Assembly: GCF_008704495.1 (NCBI RefSeq)
Contig: NZ_CP023699.1
Span: forward strand, 7,998,001 to 8,062,000
Origin: Streptomyces kanamyceticus
GTDB lineage: Bacteria > Actinomycetota > Actinomycetes > Streptomycetales > Streptomycetaceae
DNA: 64,000 bases
Direction of reading: 5' to 3'
Both the position numbers and the translations under genes were made by a program. Below are positions 3,149 through 56,322 of the stretch, one piece after another. Under the pieces are notes generated by a model. That model worked only from the letters and a program-made list of their open reading frames with translations, was not told the DNA's origin and made no database searches. Positions within the stretch are counted from its first letter, which is position 1. Each line of letters opens with the position of its first letter.

Positions 3149-3341
3149 GAGCGTAACTCTCCTTGCAGAGATGAATGATCGGGTGGGATTGGCTCGACCA
3201 TTCCACGGGTACGGGGAACGCATCCAGCATTTTCTGGAAGAAATCCCCAGATAGTTTCCGCTGAACTCCGGATCAGTTTCCCGCTGTGGTTATGCTGCAA
3301 TGCCGTAAATCCAGAGGGAGTCGGAGAGCGAGAACTCGCAC

Positions 3342-38392: not shown

Positions 38393-40555
38393 CTACGCGA
38401 GACCGGGGACCGTCGCGATCAGCAGGTCGATCAGCTTGATCCCGACGAACGGCGCGATGAGCCCGCCCAGGCCGTAGACGGCCAGGTTGCGGCGCAGCAG
38501 GTCCTGCGCGGAGGCCGGTACGTAGCGGACTCCGCGCAGGGCCAGCGGGATCAGGACGACGATGATCAGCGCGTTGAAGATGATCGCCGAGGTGATCGCG
38601 GAGGTCGGGCTGTGCAGGCCCATGACGTTCAGCGACTCCAGGCCCGGATAGGCCCCGGCGAACATGGCGGGGATGATCGCGAAGTACTTCGCGACGTCGT
38701 TCGTGATCGAGAAGGTGGTGAGCGCGCCCCGGGTGATGAGGAGTTGCTTGCCGATCTCGACGATCTCGATGAGCTTGGTCGGGTTGGAGTCCAGGTCCAC
38801 CATGTTCCCGGCCTCCTTGGCGGCGGAGGTACCGGTGTTCATGGCCACGCCGACATCGGCCTGGGCGAGCGCGGGCGCGTCGTTGGTGCCGTCACCGGTC
38901 ATCGCGACGAGCTTGCCGCCCTCCTGCTCGCGCTTGATCAGCAGCAGCTTGTCCTCGGGCGTCGCCTCCGCCAAGTAGTCGTCCACGCCCGCCTCCTGGG
39001 CGATCGCGCGGGCCGTCAGCTGATTGTCGCCGGTGATCATGACGGTGCGGATGCCCATGCGGCGCAGCTCGGCGAAGCGCTCCCTGATCCCGTCCTTGAC
39101 GACGTCCTTGAGCTGGATCGCGCCGAGCACCCGCGGCCCGTCCCCGTCGTGCACCGCGACGAGCAGCGGGGTGCCGCCCGCCTGCGCGATCGCGTCGGTG
39201 TACTCGCGCGCCTCGCGCGGCACGCGCCCGCCGTAGCTCTCCACCCACGCGATCACCTGGGCCGCCGCGCCCTTGCGGATCGCGCAGAGCGCCCCGTTCT
39301 CCCAGCCCATGTCGACGCCGCTCATGCGGGTCTGCGCGCTGAACGGCACGAACCGCGTGTGGCCCAGCTCCCCGTCCGCGGGCTCCCGCAGGCCGTACGC
39401 GTTCTTCGCGAGGACGACCACGGAGCGGCCCTCGGGGGTCTCGTCGGCCAGCGAGGAGAGCTGGGCGGCGTCCGCGAGGGCGAGTCCGTCGATGCCGGGC
39501 AGCGGCACGAAGGCCGCGGCCTCGCGGTTGCCGAGCGTGATGGTGCCCGTCTTGTCGAGCAGCAGGGTGTTGACGTCGCCCGCCGCCTCGACCGCGCGCC
39601 CGCTCATCGCGAGGACGTTGCGCTGGACGAGCCGGTCCATGCCCGCGATGCCGATGGCGGAGAGCAGCGCGCCGATCGTCGTCGGGATGAGCGTGACGAG
39701 CAGGGCCACCAGGACCGTCGTCGACTGGGCGGCCCCCGCGTACGAGGCCATGGGCTGGAGCGAGACGACGACCAGGATGAACGCGACGGTGAGCGCGGCG
39801 AGCAGGATGTTCAGCGCGATCTCGTTGGGCGTCTTCTGCCGGGCGGCGCCCTCGACCAGCGCGATCATGCGGTCGAGGAAGGAGTTGCCGGGCCGGGACG
39901 TGACCCGCACGACGATGCGGTCGGACAGTACCGTCGTGCCGCCGGTGACCCCGCTGCGGTCGCCGCCCGACTCGCGGATGACGGGCGCCGATTCGCCGGT
40001 GACGGCGGACTCGTCGACCGCCGCGACGCCCTCGACGACCTCGCCGTCGGCCGGGATCGTCCCGCCCGCCGCGACGACGACGAAGTCGAAGGGCTGGAGC
40101 TCGGCGGCGGACACGGCCTCCGTCGTGGCGTGGCCGACGTCCGTGCCGACCCGCCAGTTGTCGCGCAGGCGCAGCGCCACCGTGTCCGTGCGCGCCTTGC
40201 GCAGCGAGGCGGCCTGCGCCCTGCCGCGGCCCTCGGCGACCGCCTCCGCGAGGTTGGCGAAGAGCACGGTGAGCCACAGCCAGCCGCCGATGACCCAGGT
40301 GAACACCGCGGGGTGGAGGAGCGCGGAGAGCGTGGTGAGCACGGCGCCGACGGCGACGACGAACAGCACGGGGGTGCGGACGAGCGCGCGCGGATGCAGT
40401 TTCCGTACGGCCTCCGGGAGGGCGGCGAGCAGATGGCGCGGCTGGAAGAGCCCGGCGGGGCGGCGCCGCGCCGAGCGGCGTACGGCGGGCGGGGGCGGGG
40501 GAGCGGGCGCGACGGGAGCGGGAGCGGGGGTGTGGGTGGGGGCGGCGGAGGGCAT
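38393..40555 (-). CDS. kdpB: Orphan KdpB: K+-transporting P-type ATPase catalytic subunit (720 aa)
   Basis: A full-length P-type ATPase of the KdpB class with phosphorylation motif [10 protein letters not shown] (Asp334), [60 protein letters not shown] and the [20 protein letters not shown] ending unique to KdpB. No KdpA, KdpC or KdpF accompanies it. It is strongly similar to the operon KdpB at 50194 throughout, but differs at the Pro-rich N terminus ([15 protein letters not shown]) and in scattered positions. KdpB alone cannot form a K+ channel; K+ passes through KdpA, so this copy may swap into the KdpFABC complex. ATG 40555; a repeated-unit box (40640-40690) lies 85 bp upstream. Confidence 0.9.
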
Positions 40556-40639: not shown

Positions 40640-40690
40640 GCGTCAAGCCTGCGTCAAGGGGGCGGGGCGAGGCGTCAGGGCGGCATCAAG
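40640..40690. promoter_or_regulatory. Putative KdpE-type direct-repeat box 1
   Basis: Units GCGTCAAG (40640), GCGTCAAG (40651), GCGTCAGG (40672) and GCATCAAG (40683). Starts are spaced 11, 21 and 11 bp, as in three other sites in the K+ island. It lies in the divergent gap between kdpB1 and the VOC gene; the units read toward the VOC gene. Confidence 0.65.
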
Positions 40691-40737
40691 GCGACTCGAA
40701 CCGGTGTGCGCCACCCCGCAGACTGATCGGCGCGGGG

Positions 40738-40793
40738 GGCGGTGACCGTCCGGCCGGGACCACGAGGGGGGTCGCGGCCGGACGGTCACCGCC
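40738..40793. promoter_or_regulatory. 19-bp perfect inverted repeat in a divergent promoter region
   Basis: Arms 40738-40756 and 40775-40793 are exact complements (GGTGACCGTCCGGCCG core) with an 18-nt loop. It lies between two divergent genes, where a terminator is not needed, so it is either a palindromic protein site or a leader hairpin of the VOC gene. Confidence 0.55.
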
Positions 40794-40882
40794 GTCGGGC
40801 CAGCCCGTTCACCGGACCATCGATCAGCTCTGCGCGGTCTCCTCCGAGCGCTTTCTACTCAAATTTGACTAGACTGGCCCGC

Positions 40883-41584
40883 ATGCCAGAGAAAACCATC
40901 CCCCTCCTCCCGTGCCAGGAGATCCAGCCGGTGGTCGACTTCTACACCGCGCTGGGTTTCGAGACGACCTACCTCCAAAAGAGCCCGTACGCCTACGCCG
41001 CCTTCGAGCGAGGCGCCATCGAGCTGCAGTTCTTCGCCATGAAGGGGTACGACCCGAAGGAGTCCTACTCCGGCTGCTACGTCCTCACCGACGACGTGGC
41101 GGCACTGCACGCCGCCTTCCGCGCCGGGCTCAAGGCGGCGTACGGCAGGATCCCCGCCCGGGGGCTGCCCCGCATCGGACCGCTCAAGGACATGTCGTAC
41201 GGAATGCGGCAGTTCCTGATGAGCGACCCCGGCGGCAACAGCATCCGCGTCGGGCAGGCGATCGGCGAGGACCAGTCGATGCGCCCCGCGCCCAAGGGGA
41301 CCTTCGCGCGCGCCCTGCACACGGCGGACCTGTTCGCCGACTCCAAGGAGGACCTGCCGGGGGCCGCGAAGATCATCGATCGCGCGCTCGGCCTGACGGA
41401 CGAGCGGCCCACGCCCGAACAGGAAGTGCGCCTGCTCGTCCTGCGCGGCGACATCGCCCAGCGGATCGGCGACGACACCCTGGCCGAGAGCTTCCTCGCC
41501 CGCGCGGCCGGGGTCGAACTCACCGACGGGGAAAGGGAGTCGACACACGACGCCCTCGCGCGCCTCGCCGAGCTGCGGGACTGA
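40883..41584 (+). CDS. VOC-fold (glyoxalase/bleomycin-resistance-like) protein with C-terminal helical extension
   Basis: Residues 1-125 form a VOC module (PLLPCQEIQPVVDFYTALGF, AAFERGAIELQFFAMKGYDP, GMRQFLMSDPGGNSIRVGQA). Residues 130-233 add a helical tail with TPR-like character (LPGAAKIIDRALGLTDERPT, VRLLVLRGDIAQRIGDDTLAES). Related proteins are annotated as bleomycin resistance proteins. No resistance role is shown by sequence. ATG 40883. The A/T-rich ACTCAAATTTGACTAGACT immediately upstream may be a promoter, with a very short leader. It sits between kdpB1 and the second kdpD, so it could be part of the K+ regulon. Confidence 0.8.
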   Translation: MPEKTIPLLPCQEIQPVVDFYTALGFETTYLQKSPYAYAAFERGAIELQFFAMKGYDPKESYSGCYVLTDDVAALHAAFRAGLKAAYGRIPARGLPRIGPLKDMSYGMRQFLMSDPGGNSIRVGQAIGEDQSMRPAPKGTFARALHTADLFADSKEDLPGAAKIIDRALGLTDERPTPEQEVRLLVLRGDIAQRIGDDTLAESFLARAAGVELTDGERESTHDALARLAELRD

Positions 41585-41593
41585 GTCCCCCGC

Positions 41594-41644
41594 ACGTCAG
41601 AGCCTCGTCAAAGTCCCCGCTCGCGACGCCAGGACCGCGTCAAG
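41594..41644 (+). promoter_or_regulatory. Putative KdpE-type direct-repeat box 2
   Basis: Units ACGTCAGA (41594), TCGTCAAA (41605), ACGCCAGG (41626) and GCGTCAAG (41637), spaced 11, 21 and 11 bp. It lies 95 bp upstream of the second kdpD gene and reads in its direction. Confidence 0.62.
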
Positions 41645-41660
41645 GCCCGTGTCCCCGGCG

Positions 41661-41699
41661 GCCCTTGGGGGAGGGCGTGAGGCACGCTCCCCCAAGGGC
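41661..41699 (+). promoter_or_regulatory. Leader hairpin upstream of the second kdpD
   Basis: GCCCTTGGGGGAG (41661-41673) pairs with CTCCCCCAAGGGC (41687-41699); an inner CGTG-AGG-CACG stem closes the loop with a GG bulge. It sits 39 nt before the start codon, within the likely transcript. May be a structural 5' leader or an attenuator. Confidence 0.5.
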
Positions 41700-41738
41700 A
41701 TCCGCCCGGGAAACCGCCCCGCCGGACCAAGGGGTGCC

Positions 41739-44288
41739 ATGAGCGATGACGTACGACCCGGAGCGCTGAAGGTCTATCTGGGGGCGGCCCCCGGCGTCGG
41801 CAAGACCTGCCGCATGCTCGACGAGGCGCACCGCAGGGCCGCCCGCGGCACCGACGTGGTCGTCGGGGCCGTCGCGTGCCACGGCCGCCCGCACACCGAG
41901 GCGATGCTCGCGGGCCTGGAGGTGCTGCCGTCCGCCGGGGGCGGCCTCGACCTCGCGGCACTGCTCGCACGCCGCCCGCGCCTCGCCGTCGTCGACGACC
42001 TCGCGGAGATCAACACCCCTGGAGGCGGCCGCCGTTCGCGCCGCTGGCAGGACATCGAGGAGCTCCTCGCGGCCGGTGTCGACGTCATCACCGCCGTCGA
42101 CATCCGGCACCTGGAGTCCCTCAACGACGTCGTCGAGAAGATCACCCGGGTGCCCGTCACCGAGACCGTCCCCGACCGCGTCGTCCGCCGCGCCCGGCAG
42201 ATCGAGCTGGTCGACATGGACCCCGAGGCGCTGCGCCGCCGCATGGCGCACGGCGGTATCCACGCCCCCGAGGACATGGACGCGGCCCTCGCCCACCACT
42301 TCCGCCCCGGCAACCTCACCGCGCTGCGCGAACTGGCCCTGCGCTGGCTGGCCGGACACGTCGGCGAGCAGCTCAGGAGCCACCGGAGCGAGCACGGCGG
42401 CGACGGCGTCCGCGAGGCCCGCGAGCGCGTCGTCGTCGCGCTCACCGGCGGCCCCGAGGGCGAGACCCTGATCCGCCGCGCCGCCCGCATCGGCGATCTG
42501 CCCCGCACCCTCGGCGCCCCGCACTCCGGGGGCGACCTGCTCGCCGTGCACGTGGCCCGCAGCGACGGCCTCGCCGCGGGGGCCTCGCACGCCGCCCTGG
42601 TCCGCCAGCGCCGCCTGGTGGAGAGCCTCGGCGGCAGCTACCACTCGGTCGTCGGCGACCACGTGCCCACCTCCCTGGTCGAGTTCGCCCGCGCGGAGAA
42701 CGCCACCCAGCTCGTCCTCGGCACCAGCAGACGCGGCCGCCTGGAGCGCTTCCTGACCGGCAGCGGCATCGGCGAGACCGTCGTCGCGCTCTCCGACGAC
42801 ATCGACGTCCACATGGTCACGCACGAACGCGCGGGCGGCGGCCGGGTGTTGCCCTCCCTGCGCCGTACGCTGCCGCACTCGCGCCTGATCGCGGGCCCGG
42901 TCGCGGGACTCGTCCTGCCGCTGCTCCTCACCGCCACCCTCGCGCTCGACGGGATGCGCGGCACCCTGAACCTCACCAGCGAGGCGCTGCTCTTCCTGCT
43001 CACCGTGGTCGGCGTGGCCTGCATCGGCGGCGTCGCCTCCGCCGTCCTCGCCTCGGTCACGGCGTCGCTGCTGCTCAACTACTGGTTCATGCCGCCGATC
43101 GGCCACTTCACTCTCGGCGACCCCAACAGCATGGTCGCGCTCGGGGTGTTCGCCGTCGTCGCGGCCACCGTGGCCGCCGTCGTGGACCGCTCGCTGCGGC
43201 TCTCCCGGCGCTCGGCGCGCGCCACCGCGGAGGCCGAGACGATGTCCTCGCTGGCGGGCAGCATCGTCCGCGGCGACCATGCCATCCCCGCGCTCCTGGA
43301 ACGCACCAGGGAGACCTTCGGCATGGAGTCCGCCGAACTCGTCGACGAACTCCCCGATAGCGACGGGGCGTTGGTCGGCGTGCCGGTCGGCACCGGCTCC
43401 TTCCTGGTGCTGCGAGGACGCCCGCTGCCGTCCTCCGCGCGCCGCGTCCTCGCCGCCTTCGCCGCACACGTCGGCGCCGCCCTGGAGCGCGCCAGGCTGG
43501 CCGAGGCCGCCGCCGAGGTCGAGCCGGTCAAGGCCGCCGACCGGATGCGCACCGCGCTGCTGCGGGCGGTCGGCCACGACCTGCGCACCCCGCTGGCCGC
43601 GGGATGGGCCGCCGTCGCCTCGCTGCGCAGCCGCGACGTCCAGTTCTCCGCCGAGGACCGCGACGCGCTGCTCGCCACCGCCGACGAGTCCCTCGCCAAG
43701 CTGGACCGCCTGGTGGAGAACCTCCTCGACCTGAGCAGGCTGGAGGCGGGCGCGCTCACCCTCAAACTCCGGGCCACCGCCCTGGAGGAGGTCCTGGCGC
43801 CCGCCCTCGACGCGCTGCCGGAGGGCGGGCCCCGCATCGAGACGCAGCATCTGGAGGGGATCCCCGCCGTCCTCGCCGACCCGCCCCTCCTGGAGCGCGT
43901 GCTCGCCAACCTGATGGGCAACGCGGTCCGCCACTCGCCGCCCCACGAGCCGGTCCTCGTCTCGGCGAGCGCGCTCGCCGACCGCGTCGAACTGCGCGTC
44001 GTCGACCGGGGCCCCGGACTGCCTCCGACGGGCCGCGAGCGGCTCTTCGAACCGTTCCAGCGGCTCGGCGACACCGACAACAGCACCGGGCTCGGCCTCG
44101 GACTCGCGCTCTCGCGCGGTCTGACCGAGGCCATGGACGGCACGCTCACCCCGGAGGACACCCCGGGCGGCGGGCTCACGATGGTGCTGTCACTGCCCTG
44201 CGCGGAGTGGCCCGCGGACCTCAGCCCACGTGTACCCGCGGCCGCCGCTCCGGGTCCGGCTCGGCCCGGCGCAGCACCTCCCGGGTGA
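41739..44288 (+). CDS. kdpD: Second KdpD-like sensor histidine kinase (849 aa)
   Basis: KdpD architecture throughout. The N-terminal KdpD domain has Walker [10 protein letters not shown] at about 14-22 and a USP domain with [11 protein letters not shown] and [15 protein letters not shown]. Four TM helices follow ([68 protein letters not shown]). A GAF-like region, then HisKA with H613 (GHDLRTPL), and HATPase with [11 protein letters not shown] and [11 protein letters not shown] complete it. The Walker-B region reads [14 protein letters not shown] where the operon KdpD has ALVDELPHTNIPG. No response regulator is adjacent; the only kdpE here is at 53105. ATG 41739. The 3' end overlaps the convergent permease gene by 68 bp. 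Confidence 0.88.
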
Positions 44289-46161
44289 CGGGGGCGACCT
44301 CGCCGTCGCCGAAGACGAGGAAGCGCAGCAGATGGCTGAGCGGGTTGCCCTCGGTCCAGTTGAAGTAGGCGTGCGGGACCTGGCCGGTGCGGTCGCGGAT
44401 CTCGATCAGGACCGCCGCGATGGTGTTGGGCACCCCGGGCCCCGTCACCCGCAGCCTGCGCGAAGCGTGCTTCTCGTCGCCGCACACCGTCAGCGAGGTG
44501 GTGAAGTCGGAGGAGTTGTGGACCAGGACCTCCAGGAAGAGCACGGGCTTGCCGCCCGGGATGTGGGTCTGCTCGCGCTGGCTGTACTCCTTGGCGCGGT
44601 ACTCGGCGGTGCTGTGCTCCTGCGGTTCGTTGGCGATGATCCGCACGGGGCCCGACGCGGCGACCTCGTCGATGAGCCGCGCCGCCGTCTCGTCGAACAC
44701 CACGCCCGTCGCCCGCAGTTCGAAGGCCCGGTGCACCCGCGAGGCGAAGGACGTCAGGACGATCCCGAGGATGAAGAGCGCCGCGATCTTGATGCCGTCG
44801 GGCCGCTCGACGACATTGGTGACCAGGGTGTACGCGAACACGGCGGTGATCAGGCCGAAGCCGAGGGTGGCCGCCCGGTGCCCCCGGTGGCGCACGGCGA
44901 CCGTCGAGGCGAAGGCGGCGGACAGCATCAGGACGAGGACGCCGGTGGCGTACGCGCCGCTCTGCGCGTCGACGTCGGCGTTGAACCAGAGCGTGATGCC
45001 CACCGCGATCGCCATGAAGACGAGGACCAGCGGCCGCACCGCCCGCGTCCACTCGGGCGCCATGCCGTAGCGCGGCAGGTAGCGCGGCACGATGTTGAGC
45101 AGCCCGGCGAGCGCGGAGGCCCCGGCGAACCACAGGATGGCGATCGTCGAGACGTCGTAGAGCGTGCCGAACACCTCGCCCAGGTGTTCGTGCGCCAGAT
45201 AGGCGAGGGCCCGCCCGTTGGCCGGGCCGCCCTTCTCGAAGTCGTCCTGCGGGATCAGGATCGTCGTCGCCAGGCTGGAGAGCAGCAGGAAGCAGCTCAT
45301 CAGGAGCGCCGCCGTGGTCAGCAGCTTGCGGGTGTCCCTGATCCGGCCCGCCGGTTTCTCGTAGGTGTCCGTGTCGTCGCCCCGGACCTGCGGCATCACC
45401 GCCACCCCGGTCTCGAACCCGGACATGCCGAGCGCCAGCTTCGGGAAGACGAGCACCGCGACGCCGACCATGACGAACGGCGAGGAGTGCTCGGCCGTCA
45501 TCGCGCTCCACCAGTCGCCGACGCGCACCGGCTCGCTGAGCACCAGCCACACCGAGGTGGCGAGCACGATGAGGTTGAGCAGGAGGAAGACGCCGACCAG
45601 GGCGACGGCGACGCCGATCGCCTCGCGGAACCCCTTGAGGAAGACCGCGCCGAGCGCCGCGATCAGGACGAGGGTGATCAGGACGTTCTCGCCGTCCAGC
45701 CAGTGCGGGGCGAAGGGGTTCTCCACGACGTGCGCGGAGGCGTCGGCGGCGGACAGCGTGATGGTGATGATGAAGTCCGTGGCGGCGAACCCGAGCAGGA
45801 CGAGGACGAACATCTTCCCCGACCACCAGGGGAGCAGCCGCTCCAGCATGTGGATCGAGCCCTCGCCGTGCGGCGACTCCTTGGCCACCCTGCGGTAGAC
45901 CGGCAGCGCGCCGAGCAGCGTCAGGGCGATCAGGACCAGGGTGGCGAGCGGCGAGAGCAGTCCGGCGGCGAGGGCCGCGATGCCCGGCTGGTAGCCGAGC
46001 GTGGAGAAGTAGTCCACGCCGGTCAGACACATCACGCGCCACCACTTGTGGCCCTGGTGCTCGGCGGGCGGGGTGCCGTGCGGGCCCTGGTGCCGGGCGG
46101 ACAGCTCGGTCAGACCTTCGAGGAGCCAGGCGCGCAGAGGGTGCGGGGACTTCGCGGTCAT
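44221..46161 (-). CDS. KUP-like APC-superfamily permease, probable K+ transporter (646 aa)
   Basis: About 12 TM helices to roughly residue 500, then a long cytosolic domain. KUP-like stretches are [59 protein letters not shown] and [20 protein letters not shown]. The tail includes [19 protein letters not shown] and a [15 protein letters not shown] segment. Many pipelines would call it an amino acid transporter, but its place among kdp and kimA-like genes and the shared box favour K+ uptake. ATG 46161, just 20 bp from box 3. Convergent overlap with the second kdpD. Substrate call moderate. Confidence 0.78.
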
Positions 46162-46181
46162 GCGCACATCGTCGCGCGGGG

Positions 46182-46232
46182 GCGTCAAGAGTGCGTGAAG
46201 ACCGGGCCGTTCCGCGCGAAGAACGCGCAAGG
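46182..46232. promoter_or_regulatory. Putative KdpE-type direct-repeat box 3
   Basis: Units GCGTCAAG (46182), GCGTGAAG (46193), GCGCGAAG (46214) and GCGCAAGG (46225), with 11, 21 and 11-bp steps. It lies between the divergent KUP-like and KimA-like genes: 21 bp from the former's start, 125 bp from the latter's. A palindrome AAAGCGCTTT follows at 46233-46242. Confidence 0.6.
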
Positions 46233-46356
46233 AAAGCGCTTTTGCGCGCGGAACCGGACAGAACCTGGGCGCACCTGCCCACGGCCGGACTCGTACGCGC
46301 CGCAGCGCGGGGTCCATCCGCCCCCGAGCCCCCGGGGCCCCAGAAGGAGTACGCGC

Positions 46357-48198
46357 ATGTCCGTCCTGACCAGCAAGCCGGGGACCACCCCCCTCGACGA
46401 GGAACCGCCCGATACCGGTGAGAAGCACCGGCTCACCGCCGTCACCGGGCTCGCGGCCCTGTCCCTCGACGCGATGGCGTCCGTCGCGTACGGCCCCGAG
46501 GCGATCGTGCTCGTGCTGGCCGCCGCGGGCGGCTACGGCCTCGGCTTCACCCTCCCGGTCACCCTCGCGATCGCCGCCCTGCTCGCGGTCCTCGTCGCCT
46601 CCTACCGCCAGGTGATCGCCGCCTTCCCCGACGGCGGCGGCTCCTACGCCGTGGCCAAGACGCACCTCGGCCGCCGCACCAGCCTGGTCGCCGCCGCCTC
46701 GCTCGTCCTCGACTACGTCCTGAACGTCGCGGTCGCCGTCACCGCCGGTGTCGCCGCCCTGACCTCGGCCTTCCCCGAGCTGTACGGCGATCGCCTGTGG
46801 CTCTGCCTGGCCGTGCTCGTCCTGATCACCGGCATCAATCTGCGCGGCATCGTCGACTCCGCACGGGCCTTCATCGCCCCGACCGCGGTCTTCGTCCTCT
46901 CGATGCTCACCCTGATAGCCGTCGGCCTCTTCCGCTCGTCCCCGGTCAGCACCGAGGCCGCGCGGGGCCATGCCTCGGTCGTCGCCGACAACGCCACCAC
47001 CGTCGGCGCGCTGCTGCTGCTCAAGGCGTTCGCCTCCGGCTGCTCCGCGCTGACCGGCGTCGAGGCCATCGCCAACGCCGTGCCGTCCTTCCGCGCCCCG
47101 CGCGCCAAGCGCGCCCAGCACGCGGAGATCGCCCTCGGTGCCGTACTCGGCGTCATGCTGATCGGCCTCGCCGTGCTGATCTCCCGCTTCCACCTGCAGC
47201 CCGTCGAGGGCGTCACCGTGCTCGCCCAGCTCGCGGACGCCTCCCTCGGCCACAACTGGGCCTTCTACGTCATCCAGTTCGCGACGATGATCCTGCTCGC
47301 CCTCTCCGCGAACACCTCCTTCGGCGGCCTGCCCGTCCTCCTGAAGCTGCTCGCCCGCGACAACTTCCTGCCGCACGTCTTCGCCCTCAAGGCCGACCGC
47401 CAGGTCCACCGGCACGGCGTCCTGACCCTCGCCGCGATCTCCGCCGCCCTGCTCGTCTTCTCCGGCGGCGACACCAACACCCTCGTGCCGCTCTTCGCCA
47501 TCGGCGTCTTCGTCGGCTTCACCATCGCGCAGACCGGCATGGTCCTGCACTGGCACCGCGAGCGCGGCCCGAAGTGGCTCGGCAAGGCCCTCCTGAACGG
47601 CCTGGGAGCGGTCCTCACCGGCGTCAGCGCGGTCGTCGTCACCGCCACCAAGTTCCACGACGGCGCCTGGCTGATCGTGGTCGCCCTGCCCCTCCTGGTC
47701 GCCGCCTTCGAGACCGTCCACCGGGCCTACGCCCGCATCGGCGAGCGGCTGGGCCTTGGCCGGGTACCGGAGTGCCCGCACCGCGACCGCTCCCTCGTGA
47801 TCGTCCCCGTCTCCTCCCTGTCCCGCCTGACCAGCGAGGCCCTGACCGCCGCCGTCTCGCTCGGCGACGAGGTCCGCGCGGTGACCGTCTGCCACACCGA
47901 CCCGGAGGACCGGGCGCAGGTCGAGGCCCTGGAGCGGGACTGGGCGCTGTGGGGCCCGGGTGTGGACCTGGTCCGCGTTCCCGCCGAGCGCCGCACCATC
48001 GGCAGGCCCATCGCCGCGTACGTACGGGAGATCGAGGCGGCCCGGCCCGGCACCCGCGTCACCGTGCTGATCCCCGAGGTCGAGCCGGCCCGCGCCTGGC
48101 AGCGGATCCTGCAGAACCAGCGCGGCGCGGTGGTCGCCCACGCGGTCCGCAGGGACACCGACGCGGCCATCTGCAGGCTGCGTTTCCGGCTCTCCTGA
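46357..48198 (+). CDS. KimA-like K+ transporter, APC superfamily (613 aa)
   Basis: N-terminal [20 protein letters not shown], then [20 protein letters not shown] and [20 protein letters not shown] match the KimA/YdaO family of high-affinity K+ symporters. Helices continue to about 455, followed by a roughly 140-residue cytosolic USP-like domain ([26 protein letters not shown]-free, ending RLRFRLS). KimA proteins import K+ with protons and are inhibited by c-di-AMP. ATG 46357 with AGAAGGAG 7-8 nt upstream. No ydaO-type riboswitch is visible upstream; box 3 is. Paired back to back with a KUP-like permease. Confidence 0.85.
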
Positions 48199-48216
48199 CA
48201 GGGGCGCCGCCAGCGG

Positions 48217-48267
48217 TCGTAAGAGAGCCGTCAAGAGGCCTCTTGACGGCGTATGGACGGCGTCAAC
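48217..48267 (+). promoter_or_regulatory. Putative KdpE-type direct-repeat box 4, upstream of kdpFABCED
   Basis: Units TCGTAAGA (48217), CCGTCAAG (48228), GCGTATGG (48249) and GCGTCAAC (48260), with the same 11, 21 and 11-bp steps. A 24-bp perfect palindrome (48227-48250, half-site GCCGTCAAGAGG) is superimposed and starts 28 bp after the kimA-like stop, so it may double as that gene's terminator. The box ends 87 bp before the first small ORF. Confidence 0.68.
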
Positions 48268-48354: not shown

Positions 48355-48438
48355 ATGGCCGACGTGGCCTTCGTCGTCACCACGATCGCGGTTTTCGCGC
48401 TGGTGGCACTCGTCGCCAAGGGGGTGACCAAGCTGTGA
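48355..48438 (+). CDS. 27-residue membrane peptide upstream of KdpF
   Basis: [27 protein letters not shown], written in two parts: [20 protein letters not shown] and AKGVTKL. One hydrophobic helix with a basic C terminus. CAGGAG lies 7 nt before the ATG. Its TGA overlaps the GTG of kdpF (GTGA), so the two are coupled. It resembles KdpF in size and topology, hinting at a second small subunit. Below normal annotation length, but the ribosome site and coupling support it. Confidence 0.65.
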
Positions 48439-48524
48439 CTGCCGAGAACATCGTCGGCCTGATCGTGGCCGTCGCCCTGCTGGGTTATCTCGTCCTCGCC
48501 CTCGTCTTCCCGGAGAGGTTCTGA
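48435..48524 (+). CDS. kdpF: KdpF, small subunit of K+-transporting ATPase (29 aa)
   Basis: Encodes [20 protein letters not shown] then LALVFPERF. The single helix with the [12 protein letters not shown] ending is the actinobacterial KdpF signature. It stabilises the KdpFABC complex in the membrane. GTG start overlaps the preceding peptide's stop; kdpA begins 8 bp after its stop. Confidence 0.88.
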
Positions 48525-48532
48525 GCACAGAT

Positions 48533-50197
48533 ATGAGCCCCGTTCTTGCTGGTGTGCTCCAGCTGCTGGCGCTGATAGCGGCGCTGGCCCTCGCATACCG
48601 CCCGCTCGGCGACTACATGGCCCACGTCTACTCCTCGAAGAAGCACCTTCGCGCGGAGAAGTGGATCTACAAGGCCATCGGCGCCAACCCCGACACCGAG
48701 ATGCGCTGGCCCGCGTACCTGCGCGGCGTCCTCGCCTTCTCGGCGGTCGGCGTCCTCTTCCTCTACCTGATGCAGCGGCTCCAGGGCTCGCTGCCCGGAT
48801 CGCTCGGCTTCAAGTCGATCGACCCGGACCAGGCGTTCAACACCGCCGCGTCGTTCGTCGCCAACACCAACTGGCAGTCGTACTCCGGCGAACAGGCCAT
48901 GGGCCACGTCGTGCAGACCGGCGGCCTCGCCGTACAGAACTTCGTCTCGGCGGCCGTGGGGATCGCCGTGGCGGTGGCCCTCGTGCGCGGCTTCGCCCGC
49001 TCCCGCACCGGTGAGCTCGGCAACTTCTGGTCCGACCTGGTGCGCGGCACCGTCCGCATCCTGATCCCGATCTCCGTGATCGGCGCGCTGGTCCTGGTCG
49101 CCTGCGGCGCCATCCAGAACTTCTCCGGCATCCACGAGGTCGGCCAGTTCATGGGCGGCAAGCAGGAGTGGAACGGCGGCGCGGTCGCCTCCCAGGAGGT
49201 CATCAAGGAGCTGGGCACCAACGGAGGCGGCTACTTCAACGCCAACTCCGCCCACCCCTTCGAGAACCCCAACGGACTCTCGAACCTCTTCGAGGTCTTC
49301 CTGATCCTCGTCATCCCGTTCGCGCTGACCCGCACCTTCGGCAAGATGGTCGGTTCGGTCCGGCAGGGCTACGCGATCCTCGCCACGATGGCGACGATCT
49401 GGATCGGCTTCACGGCGCTGATGATGTGGACCGAGTTCCACCACGGCGGCCCGGCCTTCGACCTCGCGGGCGGGGCGATGGAGGGCAAGGAGACCCGGTT
49501 CGGCATCGGCGGCTCGGCGATCTTCTCGGTCGCCACCACGCTGACCTCCACGGGCGCGGTCAACTCCTTCCACTCCTCCAACACCGGCTTCGGCGGCGGC
49601 ATCGACATGCTGGGCATGCAGCTCGGCGAGATCGCCCCCGGCGGCACCGGGTCCGGCCTCTACGGCATGCTGATCATGGCGATCATCGCGGTGTTCATCG
49701 CGGGCCTGATGGTCGGCCGTACGCCGGAGTACCTGGGCAAGAAGATCGGCACCCGCGAGATCAAGTTCGCGGCCTGCTACATCCTCATCACCCCGGCCCT
49801 CGTCCTCGGCTTCACGGCCGTGTCGATGGCACTGCCCACGCCCAAGGACTCGATGCTCAACAGCGGGGCGCACGGCTTCTCCGAGATCCTGTACGCCTTC
49901 ACGTCCGGCGCCAACAACAACGGCTCGGCGTTCGGCGGTCTGAGCGCGGACACCAACTGGTTCAACACCACGATCGGCCTCGCGATGCTGCTCGGCCGCT
50001 TCCTGCCCATGGTGTTCGTCCTCGCGCTCGCCGGATCGCTCGCCGAGCAGAAGCCGATCCCGGCCACCGCGGGCACCCTGCGCACCGAAAAGCCGCTCTT
50101 CACCGGATTGCTGGTCGGCACCATCATGATCATTACCGGTCTCACCTACTTCCCCGCCCTCGCGCTGGGACCGCTTGCCGAGGGGCTGGCGTCATGA
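48533..50197 (+). CDS. kdpA: KdpA, K+-binding/translocating subunit (554 aa)
   Basis: Four-fold M1-P-M2 architecture of the SKT superfamily. Selectivity-filter-like segments are visible: [47 protein letters not shown] and [14 protein letters not shown]. The first region [15 protein letters not shown] is conserved in KdpA. It takes K+ from outside at high affinity, driven by KdpB. ATG 48533. The TGA overlaps the kdpB ATG (ATGA). Confidence 0.96.
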
Positions 50198-52335
50198 GCA
50201 CACCCATAAAGAAGCAAGAAGAGCGGGCAGCCGCTCCGGCCGCCGCCCTCGCCCCGCACACGGACGTGCCCAGCGGCAACAAGTCCGCCGACGACGGCAA
50301 GGTGGGCGCGGGCCTCTTCGACCCCGCCCAACTCCTCAAGTCCCTGCCGGACGCGGTCCGCAAGCTGCACCCGCGGGTCATGGTCAAGTCCCCGGTCATG
50401 TTCGTGGTCCTGGTCGGCTCGGTGGTCACCACCGTGCTCGCCGTGAAGGACCCGACCGACTGGTTCGGCTGGGCGATCACCGCCTGGCTCTGGCTGACCA
50501 CGATCTTCGCCAACCTCGCGGAGGCGGTCGCCGAGGGCCGCGGCAAGGCGCAGGCCGACACCCTGCGCAAGGCCAAGACCGACACCGTCGCGCGCCGCCT
50601 GACCGGCGGCTCCGAGGAGTCGGTGCCCGGCACCGAGCTGCGCATCGGCGACCTGGTCGTCTGCGAGGCGGGCGACATCATCCCCGGCGACGGTGACGTC
50701 GTCGAGGGCGTGGCCTCCGTCGACGAGTCCGCGATCACCGGCGAATCGGCCCCCGTCATCCGGGAGTCGGGCGGCGACCGCTCGGCCGTCACGGGCGGTA
50801 CGAAGGTCCTCTCCGACCGCATCGTCATCAAGATCACGACGAAGCCCGGCGAGACGTTCATCGACCGCATGATCAACCTGGTCGAGGGCGCCGCCCGGCA
50901 GAAGACGCCCAACGAGATCGCGCTGAACATCCTCCTCGCGTCCCTCACCATCGTCTTCCTGCTCGCCGTCGTCACCCTCAAGCCCTTCGCCATCTACGCG
51001 GGCGCCGACGACCAGACCTCGATGATCGTCCTGACGGCGCTGCTCGTCTGCCTCATCCCGACGACCATCGGCGCCCTGCTCTCCGCCATCGGCATCGCGG
51101 GCATGGACCGCCTGGTCCAGCGCAACGTCCTCGCCATGTCGGGCCGGGCCGTCGAAGCGGCGGGCGACGTGTCGACCCTGCTCCTGGACAAGACCGGCAC
51201 CATCACCCTCGGCAACCGCCAGGCCGCCGAGTTCCTGCCGGTGCGCGGCACCACCGAGGCCGAGGTCGCCGACGCCGCCCAGCTCTCCTCGCTGGCCGAC
51301 GAGACCCCCGAGGGCCGCTCCATCGTCGTACTCGCCAAGGAGAAGTACGGCCTGCGCGAGCGCCACCAGGGCGAGCTGACCGGCGCCGAATGGGTGCCGT
51401 TCACCGCGCAGACCCGCATGTCGGGTGTGGACGTCGACGGACGCAAGGTGCGCAAGGGCGCGACCGGATCGGTCATCGCCTGGGTCAAGGAACGTGGTGG
51501 CGAGGTCGCCGAGGATGCGCAGGAACTCAACGACCGCATTTCACAGGCTGGTGGCACGCCGCTCCTTGTGGCTCTGGAAGACGCTGACGGTGCGCGCGTC
51601 CTCGGAGTGATCCACCTCAAGGACGTGGTCAAGGAGGGCATGCGCGAGCGGTTCGACGAACTGCGCCGCATGGGCATCAAGACCGTCATGATCACGGGTG
51701 ACAACCCGCTGACCGCCAAGGCGATCGCGGACGAGGCGGGCGTGGACGACTTCCTCGCCGAGGCCACGCCCGAGGACAAGATGGCGCTGATCAAGCGCGA
51801 GCAGGCGGGCGGCAAGCTCGTCGCCATGACCGGTGACGGCACCAACGACGCCCCGGCGCTCGCCCAGGCGGACGTCGGCGTGGCCATGAACACCGGTACC
51901 TCGGCCGCCAAGGAGGCCGGGAACATGGTGGACCTGGACTCCAACCCGACCAAGCTCATCGAGATCGTCGAGATCGGCAAGCAACTCCTCATCACCCGGG
52001 GCGCGCTCACGACCTTCTCGATCGCCAACGACGTCGCGAAGTACTTCGCGATCATCCCCGCCATGTTCGCGGTCGCCTATCCCTCGCTCGACAAGCTCAA
52101 CATCATGAACTTGTCGTCGCCCGAGTCGGCGATCCTCTCCGCGGTCATCTTCAACGCGCTGATCATCATCGCGCTCGTGCCGCTCGCGCTGAAGGGCGTG
52201 CGCTACCGGCCGATGAGCGCCGACAAGATGCTCCGGCGCAACCTCGGGATCTACGGCCTGGGCGGGCTCGTCGCCCCGTTCATCGGCATCAAGATCATCG
52301 ACGTACTCATCTCCCTCATCCCCGGGATCGGCTGA
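50194..52335 (+). CDS. kdpB: KdpB, catalytic ATPase subunit of the Kdp complex (713 aa)
   Basis: P-type ATPase with [20 protein letters not shown], phosphorylation site [10 protein letters not shown] (Asp332), [20 protein letters not shown] and seven helices. Transmembrane [20 protein letters not shown] includes residues coupled to KdpA. It hydrolyses ATP to drive K+ uptake. Overlaps kdpA by 4 bp; kdpC starts 5 bp later. A close paralogue stands alone at 38393-40555. Confidence 0.96.
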
Positions 52336-52340
52336 TCGCC

Positions 52341-53018
52341 ATGAACAACTCCGTAGGAAACACAGCCCGGTTGATAGGAGCAGGCCTTCGCGCCCTGCTC
52401 GTCCTGACCGTGATCTGCGGCGTCATCTACCCGCTCGCGGTGACCGGCGTCGCCCAGGCCCTGTTCCCCGGCAAGGCGAACGGCTCCGAGGTGAGCGCGG
52501 ACGGCAAGGTCGTCGGCTCCGAACTCATCGGCCAGCGCTACGACCTGCCGCTCAAGAAGGGCCAGGAGACGCCCGAGCCCGACCTCAAGTGGTTCCAGCC
52601 GCGCCCCTCCAACGGCCTCGGCTCCAACCAGGCCAACGGCGTCAACACGCAGTACAACCTGCTCGTCTCCGGCGCCACCAACCTCGCCGGTGACAACAAG
52701 GACCTGATCCAGCAGGTGAAGGACGCCAAGGCGGCCGTCATCAAGGACAACTCCACCGCGGACCACAAGGTCAAGCCCTCCGACGTGCCCGCCGAAGCGG
52801 TCACCTCCTCGGGCTCCAGCCTTGACCCGCACATCTCCCCGCAGTACGCCGACCTCCAGGTGCACCGCATCGCGGCCAGGAACCACCTGGGCGTCGAGCA
52901 GGTCCAGAAGCTGGTCGACGGGCACACCGACGGACGGATCCTCGGCTTCGTGGGCGAGCCGCGCGTCAACGTCCTCCAGCTCAACATCGCCCTCAAGGAA
53001 CTGACCGAGAAGGGCTGA
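52341..53018 (+). CDS. kdpC: KdpC, periplasmic-side chaperone subunit (225 aa)
   Basis: One N-terminal helix (ALLVLTVICGVIYPLAVTGV) then an extracytoplasmic domain. Signatures are SELIGQRYDLP, WFQPRPSNGLGSNQANGV, AVTSSGSSLDPHISPQYADL and QVHRIAARNHLGVEQV. KdpC supports K+ binding and complex assembly. ATG 52341. The sequence is a little longer than the E. coli protein because of an extended VPAEAV-preceding loop. Confidence 0.94.
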   Translation: MNNSVGNTARLIGAGLRALLVLTVICGVIYPLAVTGVAQALFPGKANGSEVSADGKVVGSELIGQRYDLPLKKGQETPEPDLKWFQPRPSNGLGSNQANGVNTQYNLLVSGATNLAGDNKDLIQQVKDAKAAVIKDNSTADHKVKPSDVPAEAVTSSGSSLDPHISPQYADLQVHRIAARNHLGVEQVQKLVDGHTDGRILGFVGEPRVNVLQLNIALKELTEKG

Positions 53019-53104: not shown

Positions 53105-53788
53105 ATGACCCGGGTCCTTGTGGTGGAGGACGACGCACAGCTCGTACGGGCTCTCGTGATCAACCTGGAGGCGCGCGCCTACGCCGTGGACGCGGCCCCC
53201 GACGGAGCCACCGCGCTCCGGCTCGCCGCCGCCGGGCAGCCCGACGTCATCGTCCTGGACCTGGGCCTGCCCGACATGGACGGCATCGACGTACTGAAGG
53301 CCCTGCGCGGCTGGACCCGCGTACCGGTCCTCGTGCTCACCGCGCGGCGCGCCTCCGACGAGAAGGTCGAGGCCCTCGACGCGGGAGCCGACGACTACAT
53401 CACCAAACCGTTCAGCATGGACGAACTCCTCGCCCGGCTGCGCGCCGCGGTCCGCCGCACCGAGTCCACCCCGGTCTCCCAGGAGAGCGTCGTGGTCACC
53501 ACCGACGACTTCTCCGTCGACCTGGTGGCCAAGCGGGTCACCCGGCGCGGCCGCGACATACGCCTGACCCCGACGGAGTGGCAGCTCCTCGAAATACTGA
53601 TCTGCAACCCGGGACGGCTCATCACCCAGCGCCAGCTCCTGCTCGACGTGTGGGGCCCCTCCCACGGCACCAAGACCAACTATCTCCGGGTCTACATGGC
53701 CCAGTTGAGACGCAAACTGGAAGCGGACCCCTCCCATCCCCGGTACCTCATCACGGAGCCGGGCATGGGATACCGCTTCGAGAGCTGA
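53105..53788 (+). CDS. kdpE: KdpE, OmpR/PhoB-family response regulator (227 aa)
   Basis: Receiver domain with phospho-Asp D52 (IVLDLGLPDMDGID) and Lys101 (DYITKPFSMDEL). The C-terminal winged helix (RRGRDIRLTPTEWQLLEILI, TNYLRVYMAQLRRKLEADPS) is of the OmpR/PhoB type, which usually binds tandem 11-bp-spaced direct repeats. ATG 53105 (MTRVLVVEDD); an upstream ATG at 53018 would add 29 residues. It lies downstream of kdpC and just before kdpD. Candidate ligand of the four direct-repeat boxes. Confidence 0.94.
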   Translation: MTRVLVVEDDAQLVRALVINLEARAYAVDAAPDGATALRLAAAGQPDVIVLDLGLPDMDGIDVLKALRGWTRVPVLVLTARRASDEKVEALDAGADDYITKPFSMDELLARLRAAVRRTESTPVSQESVVVTTDDFSVDLVAKRVTRRGRDIRLTPTEWQLLEILICNPGRLITQRQLLLDVWGPSHGTKTNYLRVYMAQLRRKLEADPSHPRYLITEPGMGYRFES

Positions 53789-53814: not shown

Positions 53815-56322
53815 ATGGCACGCGGCACCCTCAGGATCTACCTCGGCTCCGCACCCGGCGTCGGCAAGACGTACGCGATGCTCTCCGAGGCACACCGTCG
53901 CGTCGAGCGCGGCACCGACTGCGTGGTCGCGTTCGTGGAGCACCACGAAAGGCCGCGCACCGAGGTGATGCTGCACGGCCTCGAAGTCATCCCGCGCCGC
54001 CAGTTGGAGTACCGCGGCACGGCCTTCACCGAGATGGACCTCGACGCGGTCCTCGCCCGCCGCCCCGCCGTCGCCCTCGTCGACGAACTCCCGCACACCA
54101 ACATCCCCGGATCGCGCAACGCCAAGCGCTGGCAGGACATCGAGGAACTCCTCCAGGCGGGCATCGACGTCGTCTCCACGGCCAACATCCAGCACCTGGA
54201 GTCCCTCGGAGACGTCGTCGAATCCATCACCGGCGTACGCCAGAAGGAGACGGTGCCCGACGAGGTGGTGCGCCGCGCCGACCAGATCGAGCTGGTCGAC
54301 ATGTCGCCCCAGGCGCTGCGCCGCCGCATGGCGCACGGCAACATCTACCAGCCCGACAAGGTCGACGCCGCGCTCTCCAAGTACTTCAGGCCCGGCAACC
54401 TCACCGCCCTGCGCGAACTCGCGCTCCTGTGGACCGCCGACCGCGTCGACGAGTACCTCACCGAGTACCGCGCCGAACACCGCGTCAAGAAGATCTGGGG
54501 CTCGCGCGAACGCATCGTCGTCGGCCTCACCGGCGGCGCCGAGGGCAGCACCCTGCTGCGCCGCGCGGCCCGCCTCGCCGAGAAGGGCGCGGGCGGCGAG
54601 GTGCTCGCCGTCTACATCTCCCGCAGCGACGGCCTCAGCTCGGGCTCGCCCAAGGAACTCGCCGTCCAGCGCACCCTGGTGGAAGACCTCGGCGGCACCT
54701 TCCACCACGTCGTCGGCGACGACATACCGGCCGCGCTCCTCGACTTCGCGCGCGGCGTCAACGCCACCCAGATCGTCCTCGGCGTCTCGCGCCGCAAGAC
54801 CTGGCAGTACGTCTTCGGGCCCGGCGTCGGCGCCACCGTGGCCCGCGAATCGGGCCCCGACCTCGACGCCCACCTCGTCACGCACGACGCGGTCGGCACC
54901 GGACGCGGACTCCCGGTGGCCAGGAGCTTCAGACTCGGCCGTGCCCGGCGCCTGGGCGGCTGGCTGATCGGCGTGGCGGGCCCGGTGCTGCTCACCTACC
55001 TGCTCAGCACCTGGGCGCCCGGCGTGGGCCTCGCCAACGACATGCTGCTCTATCTGTCGCTGACCGTCGCGGCCGCGATACTGGGCGGCGCCTGGCCCGC
55101 GCTCGTCTCGGCGGGCGTCGGCTCACTGCTCCTGAACTGGTACTTCACGCCACCCATCGGCAAGTTGACCATCAACGACCCGAAGAACATCGTCGCTCTG
55201 GTCATCTTCGTCGGGGTCGCGGTGGCCGTCGCGTCGGTCGTGGACCTCGCCGCCCGGCGCACCCATCAGGCGGCCAGGCTGCGCGCCGAATCGGAGATCC
55301 TCTCCTTCCTCGCGGGCAGCGTGCTGCGCGGCGAGACCAGTCTGGAGGCCCTCCTGGAACGGGTCCGCGAGACCTTCGCCATGGAGTCCGTCGCCCTCCT
55401 GGAACGCGCGAGCGACGTCGAACCCTGGACCTGCGCGGGCCGGGTCGGCACGGCCCTGCCACTCGACCGCCCCGAGGACGCCGACGTGGACATGCCCGTC
55501 GGCGACCACATGGCCCTCGCGCTCTCGGGCCGGGTGCTGCCCGCGGAGGACCGCCGCGTCCTCGCCGCGTTCGCCGCGCAGGCCGCCGTCGTCCTGGACC
55601 GCCAGCGGCTCCAAGGGGAGGCGAAGGAGGCCCGCGCGCTCGCCGAGGGCAACCGCATCCGCACCGCGCTGCTCGCCGCCGTCAGCCATGATCTGCGTAC
55701 GCCGCTCGCGGGCATCAAGGCCGCCGTCTCCTCACTGCGCTCCGACGACGTCGAATGGTCCGAGGAGGACGAGGCGGAACTCCTGGAGGGCATCGAGGAC
55801 GGCGCCGACCGCCTGGAACACCTGGTCGGCAACCTCCTCGACATGTCCCGCCTGCAGACCGGCACGGTGTCCCCGCTGATCCGCGAGATCGACCTCGACG
55901 AGGTCGTGCCGATGGCGCTGGGCGGCGTACCGGAGGACAGCGTCGACCTGGACATCCCGGAGAACCTCCCGATGGTCACGGTCGACAAGGGCCTCCTGGA
56001 GCGCGCGGTCGCCAACATCGTCGAGAACGCCGTGAAGTACAGCCCCGAGGGCGCCCGCGTCCTGGTCTCGGCGAGCGCCATCGGCGACCACGTCGAACTC
56101 CGCGTGGTGGACCGAGGACCCGGCGTCCCCGACACCGCCAAGGACCGCATCTTCGAACCGTTCCAGCGCTACGGAGACGCGCCGCGCGGCGCGGGAGTGG
56201 GCCTGGGCCTCGCGGTCGCCCGCGGCTTCACGGAGTCGATGAACGGCACGCTCACCGCCGAGGACACCCCCGGCGGCGGCCTCACGATGGCCCTCACGCT
56301 GTGGGCGGCCCGGTCGGAGTAA
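53815..56322 (+). CDS. kdpD: KdpD, K+-responsive sensor histidine kinase (835 aa)
   Basis: KdpD domain with Walker A GSAPGVGKT at 11-19 and ALVDELPHTNIPG; USP domain with VLAVYISRSDGLSSGSPKEL; four TM helices (VAGPVLLTYLLSTWAPGVGL onwards, SLLLNWYFTPPIGKL). A GAF-like part and HisKA with H625 ([10 protein letters not shown]) come next, then HATPase with NAVKYSPEGARV and GVGLGLAVARG. It senses K+ limitation and phosphorylates KdpE. ATG 53815, 26 bp after kdpE. Similar architecture to the second KdpD at 41739. Confidence 0.95.
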   Translation: MARGTLRIYLGSAPGVGKTYAMLSEAHRRVERGTDCVVAFVEHHERPRTEVMLHGLEVIPRRQLEYRGTAFTEMDLDAVLARRPAVALVDELPHTNIPGSRNAKRWQDIEELLQAGIDVVSTANIQHLESLGDVVESITGVRQKETVPDEVVRRADQIELVDMSPQALRRRMAHGNIYQPDKVDAALSKYFRPGNLTALRELALLWTADRVDEYLTEYRAEHRVKKIWGSRERIVVGLTGGAEGSTLLRRAARLAEKGAGGEVLAVYISRSDGLSSGSPKELAVQRTLVEDLGGTFHHVVGDDIPAALLDFARGVNATQIVLGVSRRKTWQYVFGPGVGATVARESGPDLDAHLVTHDAVGTGRGLPVARSFRLGRARRLGGWLIGVAGPVLLTYLLSTWAPGVGLANDMLLYLSLTVAAAILGGAWPALVSAGVGSLLLNWYFTPPIGKLTINDPKNIVALVIFVGVAVAVASVVDLAARRTHQAARLRAESEILSFLAGSVLRGETSLEALLERVRETFAMESVALLERASDVEPWTCAGRVGTALPLDRPEDADVDMPVGDHMALALSGRVLPAEDRRVLAAFAAQAAVVLDRQRLQGEAKEARALAEGNRIRTALLAAVSHDLRTPLAGIKAAVSSLRSDDVEWSEEDEAELLEGIEDGADRLEHLVGNLLDMSRLQTGTVSPLIREIDLDEVVPMALGGVPEDSVDLDIPENLPMVTVDKGLLERAVANIVENAVKYSPEGARVLVSASAIGDHVELRVVDRGPGVPDTAKDRIFEPFQRYGDAPRGAGVGLGLAVARGFTESMNGTLTAEDTPGGGLTMALTLWAARSE

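Follow-up and report, generated by a model that had tools for sequence, protein, structure and literature searches.

The closest described counterparts of the element studied here are DNA sites of the response regulator KdpE. In the account given of the Escherichia coli protein, the site TTTATA-N5-TTTACA consists of two direct half-sites 11 bp apart, occupied by two DNA-binding domains, with R193, R200 and T215 as DNA-binding residues (PMC3264566). In Mycobacterium smegmatis, electrophoretic mobility shift assays and DNase I footprinting showed that KdpE binds a minimal 22-mer, CCGTAAAGAAACCATCAAGGCC, located before kdpFABC (Ali et al. 2017, PMC5401905). This 22-mer, which can be parsed as CCGTAAAG-AAA-CCATCAAG-GCC, was labelled '22 bp A-rich' and described as unlike other reported KdpE sites; the term 'direct repeat' is absent from the main text of the paper, and an 18-bp probe lacking the first five bases, which lie in the first unit, was not bound (PMC5401905). 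Here, we describe a 51-bp box of four direct-repeat units that occurs four times in a potassium (K+) island of Streptomyces kanamyceticus. The stretch analysed, referred to as the window, comprises 64,000 nt of contig NZ_CP023699.1 (7,998,001-8,062,000), the one contig of a 10.13-Mb genome. The box is very probably a KdpE operator: two half-site pairs in tandem, separated by about three turns of the helix, that would activate K+ genes.

Geometry and rarity of the box

The four boxes are all intergenic, all read on the forward strand, and have 8-bp units starting at 0, +11, +32 and +43:

Box A, 40640..40690, + strand: GCGTCAAG-N3-GCGTCAAG-N13-GCGTCAGG-N3-GCATCAAG
Box B, 41594..41644, + strand: ACGTCAGA-N3-TCGTCAAA-N13-ACGCCAGG-N3-GCGTCAAG; faces kdpD2
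Box C, 46182..46232, + strand: GCGTCAAG-N3-GCGTGAAG-N13-GCGCGAAG-N3-GCGCAAGG; faces the kimA-like gene
Box D, 48217..48267, + strand: TCGTAAGA-N3-CCGTCAAG-N13-GCGTATGG-N3-GCGTCAAC; faces kdpFABCED

Compared with four copies of GCGTCAAG, boxes A, B, C and D match at 30, 24, 26 and 23 of 32 letters. Among all window positions on both strands, A ranks first, C second, B third and D fourth; the next position (22 letters) is a shifted overlap with box A, and the top independent position reaches 21. A profile made from 78 sites of other genomes, leaving the window out, scores the boxes at 47.2 (D), 40.1 (C), 39.6 (A) and 38.1 (B), and the next place in the window at 3.3. The maximum of the profile in 6 Mb of Markov-simulated sequence (one strand) is 13.5. 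The odd units are looser (CGTMAGG) and the even units stricter (CGTCAAG).

The whole genome was scanned with a sequence-only model (R1) of 82 training sites aligned without gaps, the four window boxes included. The initial site set came from an iterative search of the window and 74 fetched loci, most of them surrounding kimA and kdpA in other genomes (1.8 Mb, both strands), with a cut-off exceeded by one simulated position per Mb and strand; it held 134 distinct sites, some of which are overlaps shifted by 32 bp. Among the best 150 of 14463 candidates in the 10.13 Mb, the window boxes rank 1-4 (35.1-30.7 bits, expectation value (E) 1.5e-7 to 3.9e-6), with box A at 35.1 bits. Next come two sites that were not used in training, at 6861742 (28.6 bits, E 1.7e-5) and 9425414 (23.2 bits, E 9e-4). 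After these six matches at E<=0.01, the scores fall to 16.1 bits (E 0.16). A preliminary description of this DNA had proposed the shared architecture, had judged it unlikely to arise by chance and had suggested a genome-wide scan as a check. The units were indeed found in all four regions, the gap between 38-47 and 3.3 (13.5 in simulated sequence) agrees with that judgement, and the scan places the pattern away from background, with only two further matches among the candidates scored. Single N3-spaced pairs show no enrichment over the genome (80 matches, with a reversed control giving 107, at up to two mismatches), and the signal therefore lies in the four-unit arrangement.

The geometry was also examined with the bare consensus, by ranking 189 combinations of pair and inter-pair spacings on their mean best score. 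The combination (11,32) was the best upstream of kdpA in 30 Streptomyces loci (23.17; mean 17.24, standard deviation (sd) 1.02) and upstream of kimA in 37 loci (22.54; mean 17.24, sd 0.83). Two boxes, in L166 (six units) and L203, are extended by further pairs at a 32-bp step; the unit pair looks like a module and 32 bp like its period.

Box D also holds a 22-bp perfect palindrome, CCGTCAAGAGGCCTCTTGACGG (window 48228-48249). It was dropped as a feature, as the other kdpF boxes compared do not keep it.

Conservation of the box and KdpE as its candidate binder

The distribution of the box in Streptomyces was studied in 80 named loci with kimA relatives (1.48 Mb; 79 from Streptomyces and one from an 'Actinobacteria bacterium'), eight of which contain a training site verbatim. 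There, 257 boxes score above 20 and none falls inside the genes mapped with ten query families, while 20 column-permuted profiles gave no matches at all. The box is found before kimA in 79 of the 80 loci and before kdpA in all 46 tested; it also precedes kdpA in the 30 fetched kdpA loci of the genus sample (30/30). A kdpD2 gene is present in 32 of the named loci, and 32 boxes there face one.

Of the 101 genomes sampled from the genus, 88 have kdpA and 87 of these show a match at E<=0.01, against four of the 13 that lack kdpA (best 58 candidates scored in the model search, best 30 in a later one); the co-occurrence is significant (Fisher p 3e-9) in genomes that are phylogenetically non-independent. 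The 88th kdpA-bearing genome (G037) has a box 261 bp before kdpA, with E 0.023 under laxer filters. KdpE homologs are found in 99 of the 101 genomes and the two without KdpE have no match at E<=0.01; with such a distribution, the presence or absence of KdpE is nearly useless as a test. One genome (G004) has its single KdpE match more than 3 Mb from its kdpA and nonetheless carries four boxes, so an adjacent kdpE is not required. In one of the four kdpA-less genomes with a match (G078, L172), a strong box, the best of that genome, lies beside what appears by eye to be a kdpC remnant and a KUP-like gene; this locus suggests a loss of kdpA and kdpB.

The analysis was extended to 81 regions upstream of kdpA from other families of the class, corresponding to the full-length matches minus one extra G263 copy (the fragmentary matches of G122, G137, G152, G216, G234, G246 and G275 were excluded). 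The combination (11,32) is again the best of the 189 (21.72; mean 17.5, sd 0.62), and 46 of the 81 regions reach 20 with the Streptomyces profile, against four on the reverse strand. Several of the regions below 20 keep the geometry with drifted units. The box is not specific to the island: kdp operons across the class are preceded by it, as are further genes in Streptomyces.

Downstream of the box, a strict TANNNT starts at +27, +28 and +29 in 26, 24 and 12 of 329 non-redundant boxes, respectively, against 0.09 per position upstream. If this motif is taken as the -10 element, the box covers roughly -90 to -40, where an activator in contact with the polymerase would sit.

Several observations point to KdpE as the protein that binds this box. 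The island kdpE product carries PF00072 and PF00486, in agreement with its earlier assignment to the OmpR/PhoB family, and aligns over its full length with the E. coli KdpE structure (E 1.5e-62). R193, R200 and T215 are conserved in this alignment. Its best NCBIfam match is the KdpE model NF007820, at 247 bits, which is under the cutoff of 325. The M. smegmatis 22-mer corresponds to one N3-spaced pair of the box: its score is 25.3 when placed on profile columns 33-51 (units 3-4), a value reached by none of 20000 shuffles of its letters. The exact 22-mer has no match among 198 genomes of the G103 genus. With one or two mismatches, it is found in six of them, each time upstream of a KdpA match on the same locus; taken as four-unit boxes with units 3-4 aligned to it, the six sites give scores of 42.7, 40.5, 34.8, 26.2, 12.3 and 5.0.

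The genome encodes a second, core KdpDE pair (G000:C1:2725184-2728455, L368), so the island KdpE need not be the only binder. Both KdpEs share 76% identity and the recognition helix TNYLRVYMAQLRRKLE, and the motif TxYLRxYxAQLRxK is kept in all 11 KdpE sequences compared (ten from other families and the core KdpE). Upstream of the core kdpD there is a single pair, GCATCAGG-GTT-ATGTCAAG, and not four units. The match to the M. smegmatis site, the geometry and the recognition helix lead us to take KdpE as the probable binder, with either copy presumably able to play this role. The preliminary description had seen in the box a KdpE operator for the K+ genes of the island. The 22-mer, the geometry before kdpA and the helix strongly support the operator; the distribution of the box extends it beyond the island, and the orientation of boxes A and C (see below) and the existence of two KdpEs further complicate the original picture.

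The mechanism that we would propose, read from sequence, is the following. Each N3-spaced pair, with units 11 bp apart, would be the site of one head-to-tail KdpE dimer, the arrangement seen with other OmpR/PhoB regulators. The second pair, 32 bp or some three helical turns downstream, would place two dimers on the same face of the DNA, where they could touch. With the box ending 27-29 bp before the -10 element, the proximal dimer would sit upstream of, or against, the RNA polymerase at about -40. KdpE would activate transcription when K+ is short and could jointly control the operon that encodes it, another permease and another sensor through boxes D, C and B.

Genes beside the boxes

The genes of the island are, in order:

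38393..40555, - strand: kdpB2, an orphan KdpB without adjoining KdpA or KdpC (TIGR01497, 982 bits)
40883..41584, + strand: VOC/glyoxalase-like gene between boxes A and B (PF00903)
41739..44288, + strand: kdpD2, a second KdpD-type kinase without adjoining response regulator (PF02702, Usp, DUF4118, HisKA, HATPase_c)
44221..46161, - strand: KUP/APC-like permease, named in the preliminary description, without Pfam or NCBIfam match
46357..48198, + strand: KimA-like permease, likewise named there (PF13520)
48355..48438, + strand: open reading frame of 27 amino acids (aa; MADVAFVV...) between box D and kdpF, from sequence
48435..48524, + strand: kdpF, from position and sequence, no family model applied
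48533..50197, + strand: kdpA, with orthologs in 88 of the 101 genomes of the genus
50233..52335, + strand: kdpB, homology-supported part, exact start not fixed
52341..53018, + strand: kdpC
53105..53788, + strand: kdpE, OmpR/PhoB-family response regulator and proposed binder (PF00072 and PF00486)
53815..56322, + strand: kdpD, sensor kinase (PF02702, gene prediction)

The kdpB2 product is 73% identical to the KdpB of the operon, and that of kdpD2 is 51% identical to KdpD. Orthologs of the KimA-like permease are present in at least 34 of the 101 genomes. The start region of the 27-aa open reading frame recurs in the kdp promoters of relatives.

The preliminary description had placed a box before every K+-uptake unit. 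This stands for kdpFABCED, the kimA-like gene and kdpD2, which boxes D, C and B face, and fails for kdpB2 and the KUP-like gene. Box A, 5' of kdpB2 and between that gene and kdpD2, is oriented away from kdpB2, as box C is from the divergently transcribed KUP-like gene. The same orientation prevails in relatives. In 118 loci (the window, 37 fetched loci and the 80 named loci, some genomes overlapping), kdpB2 has a box within 500 bp that points away in 19 cases, towards it in one, and no box in seven; the counts for the KUP-like gene are 14, none and 16. Boxes A and C were consequently rejected, on orientation, as forward activators of kdpB2 and of the KUP-like gene, respectively; for both, a divergent or repressive effect is conceivable.

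The gene that box A faces in relatives codes for a signalling membrane protein of the GlnX family (13 of 14 non-edge cases); the GlnX-like protein of L188 matches NF058618 at 241.7 bits, just below the cut-off of 250. GlnX has no match in the 64-kb window, where a strong hairpin and the VOC gene are found instead, and box A is thus a box whose usual partner is missing there. Directly 3' of the start site expected for box A is a long, GC-rich, near-perfect hairpin (40738..40793, + strand); the fold of 40722-40805 has -68.5 kcal/mol (z -7.07, 0/200 shuffles). The hairpin sits where relatives carry the GlnX-like gene and could be a terminator, a small RNA or a relic.

The set of genes faced by boxes is wider than the island. 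Among 40 further box loci in relatives, 38 have a box above 28 with the profile, none of the 38 inside a predicted gene. The genes of these loci (L166-L205) were named with a simple gene finder, family models being applied to ten proteins and a second library to five, and the rest by resemblance. Box-facing genes encode core KdpDE, Usp and TrkH proteins, UbiE/menG, SAV_915 and lysA-like decarboxylases, GlnX-like proteins and membrane proteins of 170-190 aa without Pfam match. The box precedes core kdpDE genes at L168, L169 and L175 and a TrkH gene at L202. The fifth box of the S. kanamyceticus genome (G000:C1:6861742, L166:4001-4083) has three consecutive pairs at 32-bp steps and faces the gene of a membrane-like protein of 184 aa with neither a Pfam nor an NCBIfam match; on the opposite side of the box is a gene that begins MTISRRTLLGTG.

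Some further loci deserve mention. The sixth and weaker genome box (G000:C1:9425414, L167; 23.2 bits) is followed by an open reading frame that resembles SAV_915 by eye, and boxes precede small SAV_915-like proteins at L174, L178, L197, L200, L204 and L205 (family model on L174 only). Some of the loci of this type also hold a lysA-like decarboxylase gene (model on L205 only); neither kind of gene has an obvious tie to K+. A UbiE/menG-like methyltransferase gene follows the box at L176, L182 and L192 (model on L182, the others by resemblance). At L195, a stand-alone KdpD sensor piece (2809-3966; 385 aa with KdpD and Usp domains and no kinase domain found) stops immediately ahead of the box, and a gene that is TrkA-like by eye lies beyond it.

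Alternative readings and comparison with known operators

Taken together, these data make us lean towards a broader scenario, held with less confidence than the operator itself. The box would be an ancient actinomycete KdpE operator whose two dimer sites, spaced by 32 bp and in phase with the -10 element, cooperate, and in Streptomyces it would serve a K+-shortage regulon that reaches beyond the Kdp pump. This regulon would include the KimA-like and TrkH importers, KdpDE and KdpD2, the GlnX-type, Usp and SAV_915/lysA-type proteins and a nameless membrane family, and different signals might converge on a single set of operators through the two KdpEs, which would share one DNA specificity.

A number of points weigh against the reading of the box as a KdpE operator. 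In the window itself, none of the four boxes is followed by a strict TANNNT at +27 to +29: box A has CAGACT at the -10 position, and boxes C and D have weaker forms. The orientation of the boxes near kdpB2 and the KUP-like gene does not fit direct activation of these genes, and for some other box-facing genes (menG, recQ) a connection with K+ is not apparent. Seven kdpA-less genomes of the genus with a KdpE homolog show no match at E<=0.01, hence KdpE alone does not imply the box. Outside the genus, 35 of the 81 kdpA regions remain below 20 and four reach 20 on the reverse strand. In the six relatives of the 22-mer the distal pair is weak, unit 2 being in register in five and unit 1 recognisable in one; M. 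tuberculosis and M. bovis are said to lack the 22-mer (main text of PMC5401905). The isolated DNA-binding domain of E. coli KdpE is described as binding the two half-sites without cooperativity (PMC3264566). Finally, no KdpE binding or expression data for any Streptomyces were found among the matches listed. A KdpDE deletion in S. venezuelae is mentioned as having no phenotype on sporulation medium or in 0.5 M NaCl/KCl, a statement that refers to the authors' unpublished data and to salt conditions rather than low K+ (PMC10117811). In S. coelicolor, KdpDE corresponds to SCO5871/5872, which appears once, in a review table (PMC9739842).

Several scenarios may accommodate part of these observations. 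The most serious of them, although we consider it unlikely, is that only the proximal pair matters for KdpE, the distal pair being independent, perhaps for negative control or fine-tuning, or belonging to the divergent gene. The single 22-bp pair was strongly bound by M. smegmatis KdpE (PMC5401905), and the domains of E. coli KdpE are described as binding half-sites independently (PMC3264566). Moreover, unit 1 is degenerate in five of the six relatives closest to the 22-mer, the core kdpD promoter of S. kanamyceticus has a single pair, and the boxes beside kdpB2 and the KUP-like gene face away from both. Against this, no inter-pair distance tested did better than 32 bp, either in Streptomyces or in other families, and the longer arrays of L166 and L203 reiterate the pairs at 32 bp, as cooperating dimers predict.

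Alternatively, the box could be owned by another regulator of the OmpR/PhoB family, such as PhoP or MtrA, which likewise have direct-repeat sites, KdpE being a mere neighbour. Direct half-sites are common in this family, related regulators are many (the KdpE query gave 143 first-look candidates in the S. kanamyceticus genome alone), and seven of the 13 kdpA-less genomes have KdpE without a match. Nevertheless, this explanation appears improbable: the two units of the M. smegmatis KdpE site and their spacing are those of the box, many genomes of other families also carry the box ahead of kdpA, other genomes carry it before kdpDE genes, and it is rare elsewhere, with six matches at E<=0.01 in 10 Mb (among the best 150 of 14463 candidates).

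A third possibility, that the conserved segment acts as RNA, finds a precedent in the cyclic di-AMP (c-di-AMP) riboswitch reported for kdpFABC of Bacillus thuringiensis (PMC6488665). It is very improbable here: the box lies upstream of the enriched -10 element, hence outside the transcript from such a promoter, and its conservation takes the form of short direct repeats. A known RNA was rejected, Rfam models at gathering score finding only tRNA in the 64-kb window and no c-di-AMP (ydaO) or other riboswitch match. Lastly, chance or selective reading of four loosely similar regions picked by eye, which the 24 and 23 of 32 letters of boxes B and D and the background frequency of single pairs could evoke, deserves practically no credence and is ruled out by the leave-window-out scores, the Markov and permuted-column controls and the conservation in dozens of genomes.

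The KdpE operator thus stays the favored reading. A 51-bp operator profile with few strong sites per genome provides a list of candidate targets and allows a precise binding test. It also raises the question of why two KdpE dimers would be kept at a fixed 32-bp phase when one pair suffices in vitro in M. smegmatis.

In kind, the box is ordinary, a response-regulator operator; it is new in its form and extent, with four half-sites, a presence in many families and expanded targets in Streptomyces. PhoB/PhoP pho boxes consist of 11-bp direct-repeat units, often in tandem, at or upstream of the -35 element. The 11-bp direct repeats are common to both, but the units are contiguous there and form pairs every 32 bp here; the PHO box has GTTCACC-type units instead of the CGTCA core, and the main targets here are K+ genes. 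The E. coli KdpE site shares the 11-bp spacing of direct half-sites, yet it is AT-rich and has one pair; its TTTATA/TTTACA half-sites were not encountered, the box units being of the CGTCA type. The preliminary description knew of no KdpE consensus of this form in Streptomyces. No paper on a Streptomyces KdpE site was found among the matches listed in the open-licence literature, but an actinobacterial site, with one pair reported, was already known from M. smegmatis. The site of its kdpF promoter has the same CCGTAAAG-N3-CCATCAAG unit, the same 11-bp spacing and the same position before kdpFABC. It differs in being reported as a single motif in the one operon studied (PMC5401905), with no mention found of a second pair or a 32-bp period, and in that Streptomyces has more targets. 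By this comparison the A-rich 22-mer gains structure: it is half of a direct-repeat box, a single pair, and this box occurs in many families of the class.

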